A stretch of DNA of 64,000 bases from Parasphingorhabdus marina DSM 22363 (GTDB taxonomy: Bacteria > Pseudomonadota > Alphaproteobacteria > Sphingomonadales > Sphingomonadaceae), in the NCBI RefSeq assembly GCF_900128895.1, contig NZ_FSQW01000001.1, positions 806,001-870,000 of the forward strand. The letters run 5' to 3'. The notes below the pieces were generated by a model. The model did no database searches and was not told the origin of the DNA. It worked only from the letters and a program-made list of their open reading frames with translations. Positions 3,677 through 10,922 of the stretch are shown in pieces. Position numbers and translations under genes: made by a program. Every line of letters begins with the position of its first letter. The first letter of the stretch is position 1.

Positions 3677-4375
3677 ATGAAACATCGACTGTTTTTCAAA
3701 TGGCATATCTGGCTGGGCTGGCTGATCGGTGTGCCGCTGATATTGTGGACAGCGAGCGGGCTGTTCATGGTGTCCCGGCCGATTGAAGAGGTCCGCGGGA
3801 CGCATTTGCGCGCCCCGGCCGAAAACCTGATCCTGTCCTACGAGAATATCGTGCTGTTTGCCGATAATGGCAATGACGTGACCGGGGCGAAACTGGTCCG
3901 GCAAGGCGACGAGCCGGTCTGGATCGTGACCTATGCCAGCGGCGCGACAGCACGTTACAGCGCCACATCTGGTGCGGCCCTGCCGCCGGTTACCCGTGAC
4001 AGCGCGCGTCTCGCGGCGGAACGGCTGTATCTTCCCGAAGAGGATGTCCTGTCGACCCGGCTGTTTACAGCCAGCGCGCCGCCTGTCGATTTGCGACGGG
4101 AGGTGCCCGCATGGCAGGTGCGATTTGCCGACGGAACGAACATATATGTGCATGCGGAGACCGGTGAAACGCTGGCGGTGCGAACCCGCTTCTGGCGGAC
4201 GTTTGATTTCATGTGGGGTCTCCACATCATGGACCTGCAGACGCGGGAGGATACCAGCCATCCGATATTGATCGGGTCGGCGGCCCTCGCCCTGCTCAGC
4301 TCAATTCTCGGGTTTGTGATGCTGTTTACACGTCGCCGGAAACGCCGGTCTGCGACAGACGGGTCAGCGGCTTGA
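3677..4375 (+). CDS. PepSY domain membrane protein
   Basis: About 232 residues. An N-terminal membrane segment follows MKHRLFFKWHIWLGW, a pattern common at the start of PepSY-associated TM proteins. A periplasmic domain comes next, then a second membrane segment and a very basic tail (FTRRRKRR). Upstream in-frame starts exist at 3563 and later, but they would put a charged, poorly conserved stretch before the first membrane helix, so ATG 3677 is chosen. PepSY proteins are often linked to iron uptake or to inhibition of peptidases. Nothing in the neighbourhood settles which applies here. The stop overlaps the next gene's start by four bases. Confidence 0.75.
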   Translation: MKHRLFFKWHIWLGWLIGVPLILWTASGLFMVSRPIEEVRGTHLRAPAENLILSYENIVLFADNGNDVTGAKLVRQGDEPVWIVTYASGATARYSATSGAALPPVTRDSARLAAERLYLPEEDVLSTRLFTASAPPVDLRREVPAWQVRFADGTNIYVHAETGETLAVRTRFWRTFDFMWGLHIMDLQTREDTSHPILIGSAALALLSSILGFVMLFTRRRKRRSATDGSAA

Positions 4376-5004
4376 ACAGCGCCTTTCTCTTTGGTCTGCT
4401 GGGCTGGCTCGACCTTTTCGGGATCGCGGTGTTCGCTACGTCCGGCGCCCTGGCCGCGGCGCGCAAGGGGCAGACGCTTGTCACCTTTGCCTTTTTTGCG
4501 CTGGTCACCGGCGTTGGCGGCGGGACAGTGCGCGATTTGCTGATCGGCGCACCGGTGTTCTGGGTACAGGACAGCCGGGTGCCGATCCTGTGTCTTGCCA
4601 TTGCGCTGATCATCTGGGTCACGCCGGTCAGGATCTGGCGGGCCGGCGCCGTCGACTGGTTCGATGCCATGGGGCTGGCGGCCTATTCGGTATTCGGTGC
4701 GGCGAAGGCCATGCAGCTCGGCATTGATCCGGTGCCGGCGGCGATCATGGGCATCATCACTGCCTGTGTCGGCGGGGTGATCCGCGATCTGCTTGCGGGA
4801 GAGCCGTCGATCATCATCCGCCCGGAACTTTACGTCACGGCGGGAGCGCTGTCGGCCTTTTCCTTTGTCGCGCTGATGCAAACCGGGATGGATGGCATTG
4901 TCGCGGCGGCTATTGCCTTTGCCGCCGGTTTTGCCTTGCGCGCGCTGGCGATCGTCAAGGGGCTGGCGCTGCCCGTTTACCGGGGCGCGGCGGAAGACGA
5001 GTAG
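4372..5004 (+). CDS. TRIC / UPF0126 family membrane protein (copy 2)
   Basis: A 210-residue paralogue of the protein at 341-964, with the same blocks (GALAAARKGQT, GGGTVRDLLIG, GGVIRDLLAG) and about seven membrane helices. No ATG or GTG lies at the family's usual N-terminus. The likely start is TTG at 4372, which overlaps the PepSY stop (TTGA) and implies translational coupling. Longer in-frame versions starting at 4213 would add a non-hydrophobic, non-homologous leader. The 3' end overlaps the convergent sppA gene by 28 bases. Role by family: homotrimeric cation channel in the inner membrane. The retention of two copies within 5 kb is unexplained. Confidence 0.85.
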   Translation: MNSAFLFGLLGWLDLFGIAVFATSGALAAARKGQTLVTFAFFALVTGVGGGTVRDLLIGAPVFWVQDSRVPILCLAIALIIWVTPVRIWRAGAVDWFDAMGLAAYSVFGAAKAMQLGIDPVPAAIMGIITACVGGVIRDLLAGEPSIIIRPELYVTAGALSAFSFVALMQTGMDGIVAAAIAFAAGFALRALAIVKGLALPVYRGAAEDE

Positions 5005-6869
5005 CTTCTCAGCAAGTCAAACAGACGGATATCCTGACGGAATCCGGCGACCGGATTGACGGCACCGCATTCGAGGCACAGCGCCTGCACATCCTGCCGC
5101 GCCATCAGTCCCTGCGCGGTATTCAGCGCCTGGAAGAACAGGCGCTGCTGTTCCTGTGCCACCCAGCCGAAAATGCCGTTGACCGGTGCCCGTTCCCGAT
5201 CCTCCGCAAAGGGCAGGCCATCCAGTGCCCACCAGCCGAAGCCCAGAGGCTCTTCGAGATATTTGGCGTGATAGCCGCCGTCTTCCAGTCCGGCCCGTTT
5301 GGCCGCCTCTTTCAGGGCGTCGTCGAGGCCACCAAAGCTGTCGACCAGCCCGAGCTGGCGGGCGGTGCCGCCATCCCAGACCCGGCCCTGGCCGATTTCA
5401 TCGATCTGCCCCGGGGTCTTGTCACGCGCCTTGGCGACCAGTCCGAGGAAATCGCCATAGCTGTTTTCGACACCGGATTGCAGCACGGTGTGGAGATCTT
5501 CGCTGAAGCCACCGACGAAATTGGGCTCACCGGACAGCGGTGTGGTTTGCACACCGTCGGCGGTCACACCCCATTTTCCGAGCGCTTTTTCAAAACTGGG
5601 CAGTACCGCAAACACCCCGATCGAGCCGGTAATGGTATCGGGTTCGGCCATGATATGATCGCCCGCCGCAGCGATCCAGTAGCCGCCACTGGCGGCGACA
5701 TCGCCCATCGAGATGACCACCGGAATGTCCTTTTTCCGGAAATCCTCGATGGCGAGACGGATTTCCTCACTGGCGAAAGCCGAGCCGCCGGGCGAATTGA
5801 CCCGGACCACCAGCGCCTTGATGTCATCCGCTTCCAGCGCCTTGTAGATCTGTTCCGAAATCCGGCCGCTGGCACCGATGCCAGGCCCCCCGTCACCGCT
5901 GACAATCTCTCCGGCCACGGTGACCACGCCGATCGCGTCACCACTGGTTGGCAAGGGGTTTGCGGCGACATAATTATCATAGGCGATGGCCTTGAAATCA
6001 TCCGGAGACGGCGTCTGGTCGGTCCCGACCTTTTCGGCAACAAAGCGTCCGAATGCGACCCGGTCACCAATCTTGTCGACCAGATTCTGGGCCATGGCCA
6101 GTTCCGCATAATCGCCCCCGGCGGCCTGGATCATCGCGGCCGGGTCCCGGGCAAAGGCTTCGACATTGGCGTCCGGGCGGGCCTTTTTGATTTCGCCGAC
6201 CCAGCTGTCCCATAGTACCGCATAGAGCGCGGCCGAAGCTTCTTTCGCTTCGGGAGACTGGTCACTGCGCAAATAGGGTTCGACGGCGCTCTTGTAGGTG
6301 CCGACACGATAGACATGTGCCGTGATGCCGAGCTGGTCGATCAGATTCTTGTAGTAGAGCCGGTTGCCGCCAGGTCCGGCAAAAATGATTCCGCCCATCG
6401 GATCCATCCAGATCTCGTCCGCATGCGCCGCAAGCTGATAGGCGTCGTCGCTGTAGAAATTTGCGAAGGCGTAGATGGGCTTGCCTGCCTCTTTGACGCG
6501 AGCCAGCGCTTCGCCGATGCTGGTCAGGCTGGTCTGGCCGCCGCCCATGAACAGGCTGAGGTCCAGAACCACCGCCTTGACCCGGTCATCACCTGCGGAG
6601 GCGTCGATCGCACGCACCACGTCGCGCAAGCGATATTCGGTAATGTCATTCTGGCTTCCGGACAGAAAGCTTGCAAAATCGGGTCGGGCGGGTTCTTCGA
6701 CGATGACACCATTGAGGTCGAGCAGCAATGCCCCTTCGCTGACCGCCGCGACATTGGGCCGGGCAGAAAGGGCGCCGTAGAGCGCGGCGAAAAACAGCAA
6801 CATTGCGATCAGAACCAGACCGTCCTTGATCGCCACCAGAAATTTCCATGCAGCCCGGGCAAATTGCAT
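4977..6869 (-). CDS. sppA: Signal peptide peptidase SppA, 67-kDa type
   Basis: A 630-residue membrane-anchored serine protease that degrades cleaved signal peptides. It has the double S49 domain of the long SppA type. An N-terminal anchor (residues about 10-32) is followed by two peptidase domains. The Ser-Lys dyad is visible as Lys193 (GTYKSAVEPY) and Ser394 (VAASGGYW), in the positions expected from the E. coli enzyme. The start at 6869 (MQFARAAWK) is chosen over 6920 and 6878 because it has GGAG ten bases upstream and matches the usual N-terminus of alphaproteobacterial SppA. It is convergent with the TRIC gene, overlapping it by 28 bases. Confidence 0.95.
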   Translation of the reverse strand: MQFARAAWKFLVAIKDGLVLIAMLLFFAALYGALSARPNVAAVSEGALLLDLNGVIVEEPARPDFASFLSGSQNDITEYRLRDVVRAIDASAGDDRVKAVVLDLSLFMGGGQTSLTSIGEALARVKEAGKPIYAFANFYSDDAYQLAAHADEIWMDPMGGIIFAGPGGNRLYYKNLIDQLGITAHVYRVGTYKSAVEPYLRSDQSPEAKEASAALYAVLWDSWVGEIKKARPDANVEAFARDPAAMIQAAGGDYAELAMAQNLVDKIGDRVAFGRFVAEKVGTDQTPSPDDFKAIAYDNYVAANPLPTSGDAIGVVTVAGEIVSGDGGPGIGASGRISEQIYKALEADDIKALVVRVNSPGGSAFASEEIRLAIEDFRKKDIPVVISMGDVAASGGYWIAAAGDHIMAEPDTITGSIGVFAVLPSFEKALGKWGVTADGVQTTPLSGEPNFVGGFSEDLHTVLQSGVENSYGDFLGLVAKARDKTPGQIDEIGQGRVWDGGTARQLGLVDSFGGLDDALKEAAKRAGLEDGGYHAKYLEEPLGFGWWALDGLPFAEDRERAPVNGIFGWVAQEQQRLFFQALNTAQGLMARQDVQALCLECGAVNPVAGFRQDIRLFDLLRSYSSSAAPR

Positions 6870-6945
6870 CGTCAACATTCTCCATAAAAAATGCGGCAGA
6901 CCGTTTCCGGCCGGCCGCATTCAATATGGGTAGGATTGTGGCGAA

Positions 6946-7587
6946 TTACCAGCGGATAAGCCGCGGAATGACAATCCGGCCGACAATGGCGCTGGCAAGG
7001 ACCGGCAGCGTGAACCACAGGCCGATATAATAAATGTCATTAAACGGGCAGAAAATATTATAGGCCGCCGCGCCGAGTGCACCGGAGGCAATTCCGACCA
7101 GCCAGCCGGCGCGTTCCGGCGAGGTGGGAGCGCCCTGGCGCAGCCACAGGGTGAGACCGGAACCGATGACAAAGGCCGACATGCCGCTGACCGTCAGGCA
7201 GCGCAGGCCTTCGGACGGACGCAGCGCTTCGACAGGCGGGGTGTTAATCATGCTCATGATTGCCGCAGTCAGCGGGAACAGAGCCGCGGTGACCAGAGCC
7301 CAGATCCAGCCCCGGTTGAGATTGCCCACGCCGGGCCGGGCCAGGTTGACCGCCGAATAGGCCGTCGCAATGCCCAGCATCAGCAGAACCCCGCTGCGCA
7401 GGAAGAACATCTCGTCGGCCATGCCCATGGCCAGGTCATTGCGCACGCCGAGGAACCAGGCGACCGATCCACAGGCCAGCATGGTCAAAGCGGCAGCGAC
7501 CGCCATGCCGCCGGACGGCTTCAGCGAGCGCACCGGAGACAGGTCGTCGACCAGATCATCTATCAGGCTGTTGGCTACATTACTCAT
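6946..7587 (-). CDS. nrsF: NrsF-type anti-sigma factor (DUF1109)
   Basis: About 213 residues with roughly six membrane helices and a short cytoplasmic N-terminus. This is the architecture of NrsF, the inner-membrane negative regulator of the ECF sigma factor SigF. Cysteines are present in and near membrane segments (for example LACGSVAW and YNIFCPF); in the family such cysteines sense metals or oxidants. The start could be GTG 7596, overlapping the sigF stop, or ATG 7587. The latter has GAGAG eight bases upstream and is preferred. It is encoded directly after sigF at the 3' end of the bufferin operon. It is expected to hold SigF inactive until the stress signal arrives. Confidence 0.85.
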   Translation of the reverse strand: MSNVANSLIDDLVDDLSPVRSLKPSGGMAVAAALTMLACGSVAWFLGVRNDLAMGMADEMFFLRSGVLLMLGIATAYSAVNLARPGVGNLNRGWIWALVTAALFPLTAAIMSMINTPPVEALRPSEGLRCLTVSGMSAFVIGSGLTLWLRQGAPTSPERAGWLVGIASGALGAAAYNIFCPFNDIYYIGLWFTLPVLASAIVGRIVIPRLIRW

Positions 7588-7588
7588 T

Positions 7589-8113
7589 TCATTCACTCTC
7601 GATTAGGGCGCTCATCTTCTTGAGCCCCCGATGGATATTGACTTTGACCAGCGATTCAGACTGCCCGGTCATGGCAGCGGTTTCGGCGATGCTGAAACCT
7701 TCGATTTTGACTTTGGCGATCACTTCTGCCTGACGTTCCGGGATCATCCCCAGCAAGCGTTCGAGGCTGACCTTGGCCGATACGGTTTCGTCCTGCGGAT
7801 CGGCCACCAGCTCCTCGTTGAGTTCGCCATGTTCGTGGCGATAGATCTTGCGCAGGCTATCGATCCAGCGGTACCGGCCAATCGCCGCAAGCCAGGGCAG
7901 AAATGCCTTGGTCGGATCATAACTGGCCCGCTTGCGGTGGAGCGAGATCAGGGTTTCCTGAACAAGGTCATCGATCGCGGCCGGGTTGATCTTGCGCGCA
8001 AAATAGCGCCGGAGCCATTTTTCGGATTCCACCAGCAGGCTCGAATAGCATTGCTTGTCGCCGGCCTGGGCCTTGACCATCAGGTGGCGCAATGTTTCTT
8101 CGTTGGCTATCAT
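7589..8113 (-). CDS. sigF: ECF sigma factor, SigF-like
   Basis: A 174-residue group IV sigma factor. Region 2 is seen in VQETLISLHRKRASYDPTK and the following aromatic-rich stretch. Region 4 is seen in the SIAETAAMTGQSESLVKVNI helix-turn-helix. A good ribosome site (GGAGAG) precedes ATG 8113. Its neighbour is the NrsF-type anti-sigma factor, the pairing known from Caulobacter crescentus, where SigF responds to chromate, cadmium and copper and drives bufferin genes. The gene is 40 bases after the DoxX gene and is probably co-transcribed with the operon it controls, which would give positive feedback. The candidate target promoter is at 10668-10695. Confidence 0.9.
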   Translation of the reverse strand: MIANEETLRHLMVKAQAGDKQCYSSLLVESEKWLRRYFARKINPAAIDDLVQETLISLHRKRASYDPTKAFLPWLAAIGRYRWIDSLRKIYRHEHGELNEELVADPQDETVSAKVSLERLLGMIPERQAEVIAKVKIEGFSIAETAAMTGQSESLVKVNIHRGLKKMSALIESE

Positions 8114-8152
8114 CAGATCTCTCCGGCCCCGGCTAAATTATCTCTCGCGATC

Positions 8153-8593
8153 TTACCCGAACTTGTGTCCGAGCAACCGATCGACGGAGAGCAGGCCGCC
8201 GCCACGAACGATCAGGATACTGGCCAGTGCAACCCAGACGATGTGCGTGACCCACCAGGCATCGGGATAGACGAAGAACTGGATAACCAGGGTCATGACC
8301 AGCAATCCGGCAGCGCCGACGCGGGTGAACAGTCCGAGCACCACGAGAATGGGCAGAAAATGTTCCGCATAAGTCGCGATCAGGCCGGTAATCTCGGGAA
8401 ATGGCATGCCATATTCTTCCTGAAACAGAAAAACCGTGGTGTCGCTCATTTGCAGCCAGGTGCCTTCCTCGACCTTCGTGCGGGCCGAACGCCAGAAAAT
8501 GCCGGCAAGTGCGACGCGGGTGAAGAGCAGGGCAATGGCCTCGGGGACGGACCCGCTGACCATATCAATGGCTTTGTTAATCAGTTTCATCAT
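8153..8593 (-). CDS. bufD: DoxX family membrane protein of the bufferin operon
   Basis: A 146-residue protein with four membrane helices, typical of DoxX. DoxX proteins are frequent partners of DUF692/DUF2063/DUF2282 genes, and the name bufD is given because of that context. Its start (ATG 8593 or the adjacent ATG 8590) lies inside the end of the preceding bufC gene, a 17-base overlap that suggests coupled translation. The biochemical role of DoxX in these operons is not settled; export or redox support for the modified peptide is a guess. A free-standing DoxX is the alternative reading, but the overlap argues against it. Confidence 0.82.
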   Translation of the reverse strand: MMKLINKAIDMVSGSVPEAIALLFTRVALAGIFWRSARTKVEEGTWLQMSDTTVFLFQEEYGMPFPEITGLIATYAEHFLPILVVLGLFTRVGAAGLLVMTLVIQFFVYPDAWWVTHIVWVALASILIVRGGGLLSVDRLLGHKFG

Positions 8594-9329
8594 TGTCTTG
8601 GTCCTGTTTTCTTTTGGTCATTGTGCCTGCCCGGATCAGGTGAACGATCCGGTCCATGGCACTGGTTTCATCACCCAGTTCGATGGCCAGCGACAAAAGG
8701 TTACCCATAGTTGAAATATTTGCAATTTTTTCCGCAATATCCGCACTTGTGGCGTCTACAGGATGGAACAGGACCTCGGCTTCGGGACGGGCAATAATCA
8801 GTCCGGCAGGGGTTTCTTCACCCAGTTCTGACAGCTCGGGAGACAGCGGGCCGGCCATCCGGATGAGGCGGGCAGCGGGATGGGCGGCGACCGGGAAGGC
8901 GAGCAGCTGATCTTCTGCAAGTGCAGCGATATCTTCGAGCACCAGCGGCGGCGCTTCGGCGCTGTTGTAACTCTCGATCCAGCCCCACTCGGCCCGGGCG
9001 AGATCGATCTCGCTGGCACCCAGCCCGTTTTGGTGCAGAAATTCCGGAAAGTCGCGGGCGATGTTGTTCATGTCGCAGGTCAGGATATGATCCTGCTCGA
9101 TATAGTCGCGGGAGATCTTGTGAAATGGCTCGTGCCCCATATGGGCGTGCAATTTGGGATAGGCGTTTTCCAGCGCCACCAGCCGGGCATGGGACACGGT
9201 GTTGGCATGTGCGCGGAGACCGAGCAGGGCGCGGTCATCAGTTTCGGAAAACAGGTCTGCCGGGAAATGGCCCGGACCCTTTTGCAGGCAGGCCATGAAC
9301 CGGTTCTGGCCGTCAGCCAGCGAGGGCAT
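8577..9329 (-). CDS. bufC: BufC/HvfC-type DNA-binding-like partner protein (DUF2063)
   Basis: A 250-residue protein with the N-terminal DUF2063 helical region (ALLGLRAHANTVSHARLVAL, then ENAYPKLHAHMGHEPF) followed by a C-terminal alpha/beta domain. In MNIO-dependent RiPP systems this family is the partner that presents the precursor peptide to the DUF692 enzyme. It overlaps bufB upstream and bufD downstream, each by 17 bases, so the three are translated as one block. The early description of the N-terminal part as DNA-binding comes from its fold; a peptide-binding role fits this neighbourhood better. Cytoplasmic. Confidence 0.85.
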   Translation of the reverse strand: MPSLADGQNRFMACLQKGPGHFPADLFSETDDRALLGLRAHANTVSHARLVALENAYPKLHAHMGHEPFHKISRDYIEQDHILTCDMNNIARDFPEFLHQNGLGASEIDLARAEWGWIESYNSAEAPPLVLEDIAALAEDQLLAFPVAAHPAARLIRMAGPLSPELSELGEETPAGLIIARPEAEVLFHPVDATSADIAEKIANISTMGNLLSLAIELGDETSAMDRIVHLIRAGTMTKRKQDQDNDETD

Positions 9330-10197
9330 GTGGCTCTTCCTCTCCGGAATGCGCAGACAAAATGGCTTCGACCTTGTCGACCTCGGTCATCAGCACGTCA
9401 TATTCCGGAATGTCCGTGTCCCATTCGATCAGGGTCGGTTTCGGACCGGCGCGCTCGATAAACCGCTGATAGAGTTTCCAGGTCACATCGCTGACAATCG
9501 ATCCGTGGTCATCGATCAGCAGGGGTCCGGATTCATGATCTTCACGGGCATGGCCGGCCAGATGCATTTCCCCGACAATTTCGGGATCGATCGCATCGAC
9601 ATAGGCTTCCATGTCGAGTCCGACATTGGTGGCGGTGACTTCGACATTATTGATATCGAACAGCAATCCGCATCCGGCCTGACGACACAGCGCGGAAATG
9701 AAATCGGTTTCGCCCATCTCGTCATCCCGGTAGCTGAGATAGCGGGAGGGATTTTCAATCAGGATCGGCCGTTGCAGCCGGTCCTGGACGCGGGCAATCT
9801 GGGCGCTGAAATGGTCCAGCGATTCCTGTGTATAGGGAATGGGAAGAAGATCGGGATAGCGGTCATGGGCATTGCCGCTCCAGCTGAGATGGTCCGAAAC
9901 CATGGCCGGCTGATAGCGTTCGCAGAGATCCGCGATCTTTTCCAGATCATGCGCGTTGAGCCCTTCGGCGGAACCCAGCGACAGCCCGACGCTGTGCAGG
10001 CTGAGCGGGTAAACTCCGGAGATGGCGGTCAGCCAGCGATGCAGCGGACCACCATCCCCGAAGTAGTTTTGCGGATGTACCTCGACCCATCCGGGGTGTT
10101 TCGCTCCGTCTTCTTCATTCAGCACGTCTTGGAAATGTACCGATTTCAGACCAATGCCGCCTGATGGAGGGAGGGAGGGCAACATGGGTGCTAGCAT
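9313..10197 (-). CDS. bufB: MNIO family multinuclear iron oxidase (DUF692), BufB-like
   Basis: A 294-residue TIM-barrel enzyme of the DUF692 family. These enzymes use two or three iron ions and oxygen to convert cysteine residues of a peptide into oxazolone-thioamide or thiooxazole-type groups. The expected metal-ligand blocks are all visible in order: GWVEVHPQNYF, VSDHLSW, LLFDINNVEV, GEMHLAGHA, LIDDHGS and LIEWDTDIPE. The start at 10197 lacks a clear ribosome site, and ATG 10185 is an alternative. The family match proper begins at GIGLKSVHF. It lies 111 bases after the precursor gene and is the catalytic centre of this predicted copper-buffering system. Confidence 0.92.
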   Translation of the reverse strand: MLAPMLPSLPPSGGIGLKSVHFQDVLNEEDGAKHPGWVEVHPQNYFGDGGPLHRWLTAISGVYPLSLHSVGLSLGSAEGLNAHDLEKIADLCERYQPAMVSDHLSWSGNAHDRYPDLLPIPYTQESLDHFSAQIARVQDRLQRPILIENPSRYLSYRDDEMGETDFISALCRQAGCGLLFDINNVEVTATNVGLDMEAYVDAIDPEIVGEMHLAGHAREDHESGPLLIDDHGSIVSDVTWKLYQRFIERAGPKPTLIEWDTDIPEYDVLMTEVDKVEAILSAHSGEEEPHALAG

Positions 10198-10286
10198 AGC
10201 AAACAGACCGAAAATTGAGGCTGGGCGTTGGGAAACATCCGCAAAACCTATCGCAAAACCCGGTGCTGTACCAGAGTTTTGCCAGA

Positions 10287-10301
10287 GGTCAGGAACTGAC
10301 C
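10287..10301 (-). terminator. Small hairpin between bufA and bufB
   Basis: GGTCAG and CTGACC pair perfectly across a three-base loop in the otherwise empty 111-base gap between precursor and enzyme genes. There is no T-run, so it is not a classical terminator. An attenuator or mRNA-stabilising hairpin that raises precursor transcript over enzyme transcript is an inference. The rest of the gap shows nothing else. Confidence 0.3.
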
Positions 10302-10308
10302 AGGCAGC

Positions 10309-10605
10309 TTAGCCGCGCTGGGGAACCGGCTTCTTGTTGCCTTTTTTGGCGGTCAGTGAACCACCGGCTTTGACGCAGGAGCCCTTGGCAACATATTTCC
10401 AGGCATTGCCCTGATAGTCGGCAGTGGAGGTTCCGGCGCAGCTGGTGCCCGGTCCTGCGGCGCAGTCATTTTTGCCTTTGAGCGCTATGCCGAAACATTT
10501 TTCCTTGGCGCCGGCAGCCTGGGCGGTCGTGGGGGACACGGCAATGGTGGCGGCAGCAGCCAGGGCAGCAGCAGCGGCAGTGGCCTTGATCAGTGAATTG
10601 GACAT
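10309..10605 (-). CDS. bufA: Bufferin precursor peptide (DUF2282, BufA1-like)
   Basis: A 98-residue exported precursor. Residues 1-30 are an alanine-rich signal peptide ending in AQA. The mature part carries four cysteines (Cys37, Cys48, Cys56, Cys77) in the DUF2282 pattern KCFGI, GKNDCA, SCAGTS and GSCVKAGGS, and ends in a lysine/arginine-rich tail. In characterised bufferins the core cysteines are converted by the MNIO enzyme and the product binds copper in the periplasm. The start at 10605 is set by a strong AAGAGAGG site and the signal peptide; a longer in-frame reading to 10821 would run through the CIRCE and is not used. It is first in the operon. Confidence 0.88.
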
Positions 10606-10667
10606 GGTTTTTCCTCTCTTGGGAATGGGGGGATATGAACGAGCCCGCTGACGCTGGCTCAATCTGG

Positions 10668-10695
10668 CATTCGCTGCTTCGGCTTGTGCGGTTAC
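10668..10695 (-). promoter_or_regulatory. Candidate ECF (SigF-type) promoter of the bufferin operon
   Basis: On the minus strand GTAACC (10695-10690) and CGAATG (10673-10668) are separated by exactly 16 bases, about 62 bases ahead of the bufA start. A GTAACC -35 with a CGAA -10 at this spacing is what I recall for Caulobacter SigF targets. It is the only such pair I noticed near the operon. The link to the sigma factor at 7589-8113 is an inference. Confidence 0.65.
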
Positions 10696-10814: not shown

Positions 10815-10841
10815 TTAGCACTCGTCACATGTGAGTGCTAA
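10815..10841 (+). promoter_or_regulatory. CIRCE operator (HrcA-binding site)
   Basis: TTAGCACTC, nine spacer bases, GAGTGCTAA: a perfect match to the controlling inverted repeat of chaperone expression. It sits 82 bases ahead of the groES start. HrcA repression of groESL, relieved on heat shock, is well established for this element. hrcA itself is not in the window. Confidence 0.97.
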
Positions 10842-10922
10842 TCCTCATCACAGGCGTTTCTGATGGCCCGGGCAAAAGGAGCCGGCCGCTGAAATGCAGA
10901 TTTGGACAAGAAAGGGAAACAT

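Follow-up and report, generated by a model that had tools for sequence, protein, structure and literature searches.

A bufferin operon of Parasphingorhabdus marina with sigF-nrsF at its 3' end and a predicted second SigF promoter inside bufC

A cluster of bufferin genes that includes a sigma factor and its anti-sigma factor lies in a 64,000-nucleotide stretch of the genome of Parasphingorhabdus marina DSM 22363 (contig NZ_FSQW01000001.1, positions 806,001 to 870,000 of the forward strand); this whole stretch is called the window, and coordinates refer to it unless another contig is named. The genome comprises 3.55 Mb in two contigs, and relatives of its BufB protein with 78-86% identity are found in Parasphingorhabdus flavimaris, Sphingorhabdus sp., and other Sphingomonadaceae. 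The six genes bufA-bufB-bufC-bufD-sigF-nrsF all run in a single direction on the minus strand. In our reading, which we consider likely, they form a SigF operon with two promoters, one before bufA and the other inside bufC, within an envelope copper/oxidation regulon. The genes and the signals that define the unit are the following.

10695-10670, minus strand: PbufA, SigF-type promoter GTAACC-N16-CGAA(TG), an exact match with a 16-base spacer
10605-10309, minus strand: bufA, Buf1 bufferin precursor, 98 aa, DUF2282 (PF10048) at 82.5 bits, cut-off 22.4
10197-9313, minus strand: bufB, MNIO (DUF692) maturase, 294 aa, MbnB_TglH_ChrH (PF05114) at 316.6, cut-off 25
9329-8577, minus strand: bufC, DUF2063 partner protein, 250 aa, PF09836 at 42.9, cut-off 27.2
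8679-8704, minus strand: second SigF-type site, GTAACC-N16-CGAA, exact, within bufC and 85 bases 5' of the bufD ATG
8593-8153, minus strand: bufD, DoxX membrane protein, 146 aa, PF07681 at 60.5, cut-off 23.6
8113-7589, minus strand: sigF, extracytoplasmic function (ECF) sigma factor, 174 aa, Sigma70_r2 (PF04542) and r4_2 (PF08281) over cut-off
7596-6946, minus strand: nrsF, membrane anti-sigma factor, 216 aa, PF06532 at 151.6, cut-off 26.8
6922-6885, minus strand: intrinsic terminator, hairpin and U-run between nrsF and sppA, -31.6 kcal/mol, z -7.3

The coordinates and the Pfam and NCBIfam matches confirmed all six genes, on one strand and in the order that had been given by a first-pass annotation of the sequence; that annotation had the genes of the operon right and overlooked the terminator after nrsF. 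Overlaps occur between bufB and bufC (17 bases), bufC and bufD, and sigF and nrsF, and the genes are otherwise tightly packed. As laid out in the sequence, this is a single predicted transcription unit that runs from PbufA through bufABCD-sigF-nrsF to the terminator. By its domain assignments the cluster makes up a full Buf1 bufferin operon, SigF/NrsF pair included, which is a known kind. MNIO and NrsF genes each occur once in the whole genome, and DUF2282 genes twice.

BufB matches the NCBIfam equivalog model 'MNIO family bufferin maturase' (NF050167) with a score of 341.9 against a cut-off of 310. It has structural relatives in the PDB (3BWW and MbnB), and its His/Asp/Glu/Asn positions are invariant across 96 BufB sequences. 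The N-terminus of BufA, as read by eye, follows a Sec-type pattern (Lys-hydrophobic-AQA). Its four cysteines, Cys37, Cys48, Cys56, and Cys77, had been correctly named earlier, and their columns are unchanged in 106 DUF2282 sequences. The C-terminal tail that had also been noticed is present and common to the clade, extending 21 residues past the last Cys. With four cysteines BufA is unlike Buf2 precursors, which have six or twelve, and its NF050166 score of 29.9 is below the cut-off of 60; sigma/NrsF genes are reported to accompany Buf1 and not Buf2 clusters (PMC12452194). In Buf1 the two central cysteines bear thiooxazoles, through which copper is bound, and a disulphide joins the outer two (PMC12452194). 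By analogy we should expect modification of two residues, Cys48 and Cys56, and a Cys37/Cys77 disulphide. Both the copper function and the Cys-derived thiooxazole chemistry of the present operon are inferred from the family (PMC12452194, PMC13097082).

NrsF matches PF06532 over its full length, and the ECF sigma gene adjoins and overlaps it. Cys133 and Cys183 are both present in NrsF; among 62 NrsF sequences the first is invariant and the second is a Cys in 41.

PbufA lies about 65 bases 5' of the bufA ATG, exactly as first annotated (GTAACC-N16-CGAATG). Most relatives carry it without mismatch; L028 and L032 have one mismatch each, and L031 is a truncated locus. A search for sigma-70-like promoters gave zero minus-strand matches in the region, and the count found equalled that in shuffled sequences. 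Nothing in Rfam matched between positions 4000 and 13500. An attenuator between bufA and bufB was considered and rejected, as the hairpins there vary among relatives and leave no conserved element.

The same motif marks a wider set of genes. There are 14 exact sites in the P. marina genome, and the start of an open reading frame on the same strand follows in 10 of them under a strict rule and in 13 by inspection; the controls gave 1 of 9 for the reversed pattern and 14% for random positions. An exact site stands at a near-fixed distance upstream of a methionine sulfoxide reductase gene, msrA, with an exported product in 19 of 20 genus genomes, and upstream of the corresponding msrB gene in 14 of 20 (19 of 20 when one mismatch is allowed), 'exported' being a reading by eye of the N-terminal sequences of MsrA and MsrB. 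None of the 20 genus genomes has a site upstream of the msrA and msrB paralogues. Further sites stand before a cytochrome b gene followed by a molybdo-oxidoreductase-like gene, and genes for DUF1223, GST, and VTT/FAD-oxidoreductase proteins, as well as glutathione reductase-like genes named from the sequence by eye. In genome G017 (97% complete; L260, L302) no NrsF and no DUF2282 match was found, and it is the sole genome without the msrA and msrB sites, an apparent natural loss that appears to tie the motif to SigF. Msr genes recur in the regulons of ECF16 sigma factors (PMC8315932). Several genomes (loci L136, L143, L146, and L015) have a gene for a small membrane protein, about 50-58 residues long, between the SigF site and the exported msrA.

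The second DUF2282 gene of the genome is not linked to the operon.

L099:3944-4294, equal to C2:65943-66293 of the same genome: orphan DUF2282 lipoprotein-type precursor, 116 aa, with a lipobox-like LSAC and four Cys

No MNIO gene is nearby, and since bufB is the only MNIO gene in the genome, the orphan precursor, if it is modified at all, would presumably be modified by BufB/BufC in trans, for which it is a candidate. An exact site precedes the orphan gene in 14 of 19 genus genomes.

The copper-buffer role first assigned to the operon from its family is too narrow if copper alone is meant, with the site conserved before exported methionine sulfoxide reductases. The system could even be tuned mainly to oxidants, for example reactive chlorine, or to soft metals other than copper, in which case copper binding would come second. 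The msrA and msrB sites would fit such a system, as would the sites before the cytochrome b and molybdo-oxidoreductase-like genes, DUF1223, and the glutathione reductase-like genes; moreover, ECF16 relatives respond to hypochlorous acid in Brucella (PMC8315932) and a chromate/cadmium response is described in Caulobacter (PMC3511200). However, in Caulobacter the SigF regulon is induced by copper and loss of sigF makes the bacterium sensitive to the metal (PMC8224329), and Buf1 binds copper via thiooxazoles (PMC12452194). We therefore regard a primarily oxidant-tuned system as possible though rather unlikely. Copper itself may oxidise envelope proteins, so that the copper and oxidant readings can both hold.

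A search of the whole genome for GTAACC-N16-CGAA returned two sites in the operon, the one before bufA and the one within bufC. The bufC site is free of mismatches in the window and in 22 of 22 aligned relatives (23 genomes), around a mostly variable spacer. When the same 6+16+4 shape was slid over five aligned genes, giving 3,332 windows, the bufC site alone was invariant at 10 of 10 bases. Four of these ten bases are invariant third codon positions, and such positions make up only 3-5% of all third positions in bufBCD and sigF. Only 32 of 567 conserved-residue columns keep a single codon, and four of them fall in the bufC motif. The codons kept at the site are GGT, which accounts for 22% of Gly codons across the genes and is replaced by TGT in one row, AAC (44%), CTT (10% of the Leu codons), and GAA. 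The base that precedes GAA is always C, although the codon to which it belongs specifies Ile, Leu, or Asp; L217 also has the site, and there this codon specifies Ala. Because these codons are kept and the C remains constant despite the change of residue, protein conservation by itself does not account for the site, and the alignment argues that it is conserved as DNA beyond codon conservation. Outside the family the site was found in 0 of 45 bufC genes. Within bufC the T-run that follows the -35 (GTAACCTTTT, 8695-8698, minus strand) is nearly invariant in the clade, and GTAACCTTT recurs at sites preceding sigF or bufA in L189, L195, and L214, with L189 and L214 among those from other families; the T-run/GTAACCTTT is possibly an extended -35.

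The first-pass annotation had proposed that the operon autoregulates in a simple feedback loop. The SigF-type promoter before the operon agrees with this; the proposal is incomplete in that it missed the conserved site in bufC. Could the one promoter before bufA drive everything, with the bufC site present by chance or through codon constraints? PbufA matches exactly and is conserved, the genes are tightly packed or overlapping, and L214, which shares the tail order, has the bufA site only. Yet the bufC site remains exact in 23 genomes even where the residue before Glu changes, it is unique among the 3,332 windows, and Caulobacter sigF likewise has its own SigF promoter (PMC3511200), all of which makes a single promoter improbable. 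That the conserved bases serve instead an RNA element, translational coupling to bufD, or the site of another regulator is improbable as well, since the invariant bases reproduce the SigF consensus at the right distance from each other, the spacer is for the most part variable, and other families (L189, L214) also have GTAACCTTT at sites preceding sigF or bufA, although the conserved CTT/TTG codons by the -35 do exceed what GTAACC-N16-CGAA needs.

Several observations weigh against the two-promoter SigF operon and its regulon. The conservation statistics for the bufC site ignore kinship among the 23 sequences, tail-order clusters outside the family (L214, L062) are without the embedded site, and the invariance of the CTT codon after the -35 goes beyond what the stated motif requires. 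No NrsF was found in G014 (87% complete), yet its msr sites are kept. Over the 20 genomes, exact motifs numbered 265 vs 244 for the reversed control, which is not clearly above it; a bare match therefore proves nothing, and the case rests on position and conservation. Counting of motifs per genome was accordingly dropped as regulon evidence. Finally, the -35 before the orphan DUF2282 gene is broken in P. marina (GTAGTT, three mismatches) and intact in most relatives; this site may be inactive, and the orphan was rejected as a SigF gene in this genome.

In Caulobacter, NrsF restrains SigF, which uses the same promoter motif, and two NrsF cysteines are needed and set its activity (PMC3511200). 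Because of the role of these cysteines, the induction by copper, and the Buf1 chemistry, and with both Cys present here, we propose that release of SigF would be triggered by copper or oxidation. NrsF would hold SigF at the membrane until copper or oxidation acts on its two conserved cysteines. The SigF so released would transcribe the whole operon, BufA would be made, and BufB/BufC would turn its Cys48 and Cys56 into thiooxazoles; export by Sec would follow, yielding a periplasmic copper buffer. From the embedded promoter SigF would transcribe bufD-sigF-nrsF separately, which would renew the sensor and anti-sigma factor independently of read-through from bufABC. SigF would also transcribe the unlinked regulon, which would include the genes for the exported forms of MsrA and MsrB, joined in most relatives by that for the lipoprotein-type DUF2282 precursor, so that the output would combine copper buffering with methionine repair in the envelope.

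A fuller proposal, for which we judge the chances to be evenly divided, is that SigF of the genus couples two bufferin precursors to exported methionine sulfoxide repair. One would be soluble and encoded in the operon; the other would be the lipoprotein encoded elsewhere, anchored in the membrane and probably a substrate in trans of the BufB/BufC of the operon. The sensor genes would be renewed from a promoter overprinted on bufC. If so, bufferins would form one branch of a general regulon for copper/oxidation repair in the envelope. Bufferins were described recently, and it is mainly in Caulobacter that their synthesis has been linked to a sensor. The persistence of a SigF site inside a coding gene where sigF-nrsF lies at the tail suggests selection for a promoter of the sensor unit's own. 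The msrA and msrB sites, together with the genome that has no nrsF, DUF2282, or sites, offer a testable regulon that links copper buffering and methionine repair. The operon class and the sigma/NrsF genes of Buf1 clusters have been described (PMC12452194). Neither the embedded promoter nor the regulon was found reported in the text of the papers searched, a set without the original bufferin paper, and a published figure may already show the tail layout.

The closest and aligned Sphingomonadaceae loci have the same order, bufABCD-sigF-nrsF. NrsF is patchy, being found in 26 of the 142 genomes drawn from the class and in 10 of the 60 from the order. Next to these NrsF genes the bufferin genes are most commonly arranged divergently, with bufABCD one way and sigF-nrsF opposite; in other loci sigF-nrsF precedes bufABC on the same strand or takes the tail position, as in L217 (same family) and L214 (another family). 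L062 (Ferrovaceae) has the tail layout too. The tail position is a minority layout and is not unique.

Further features flank the operon.

4977-6920, minus strand: sppA, signal peptide peptidase, which follows nrsF in genus relatives
10816-10842: CIRCE element, exact, TTAGCACTC-N9-GAGTGCTAA, before groES and divergent from bufA

As a seventh gene of the operon sppA is ruled out by the terminator between nrsF and sppA in the window and in closer relatives; a similar hairpin occurs in the closer relatives only and not in more distant ones. A CCATAT box 3' of nrsF is conserved. Upstream of bufA lie the divergent groES and groEL (named from sequence), and groES with CIRCE stands beside bufA in those genus relatives whose contigs extend that far.

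The closest known counterpart is the Caulobacter vibrioides Buf1 operon (CC3254-CC3257) with sigF-nrsF (CC3253-CC3252), which has the same six genes and the same GTAACC-N16-CGAA promoters, a SigF site before both the sigF unit and bufA, and two conserved cysteines in NrsF (PMC3511200). In Caulobacter, sigF (CC3253) and then nrsF (CC3252) form a unit separate from buf, both units having a SigF promoter of their own (PMC3511200), and not the front of the operon as had been supposed; from the locus numbering we infer that the two units are divergent. Here, in contrast, sigF-nrsF closes the operon at its 3' end, with a site of its own within bufC. The Caulobacter regulon includes a second buf operon and msrPQ, whereas here it would include exported msrA and msrB and, in relatives, the lipoprotein-type DUF2282 gene. 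The ECF16 systems (Brucella BcrS/AbcS, Azospira SigF, Bradyrhizobium EcfF) likewise pair an ECF sigma factor with an NrsF-type (DUF1109) anti-sigma factor and have methionine sulfoxide reductases within the regulon (PMC8315932); they differ in that the present pair lies together with a bufferin cluster and that MsrA and MsrB are the reductases here. Clusters of the captophorin class, and those for oxazolin and fontiphorin, share the MNIO and its DUF2063 partner, often with DoxX (PMC13097082), but their precursors are EGKCG-repeat peptides and here the precursor is a four-Cys DUF2282 domain. The gig operon of Cupriavidus metallidurans is a bufferin-type cluster as well, and is induced by gold, silver, and copper (PMC8224329, PMC12452194).

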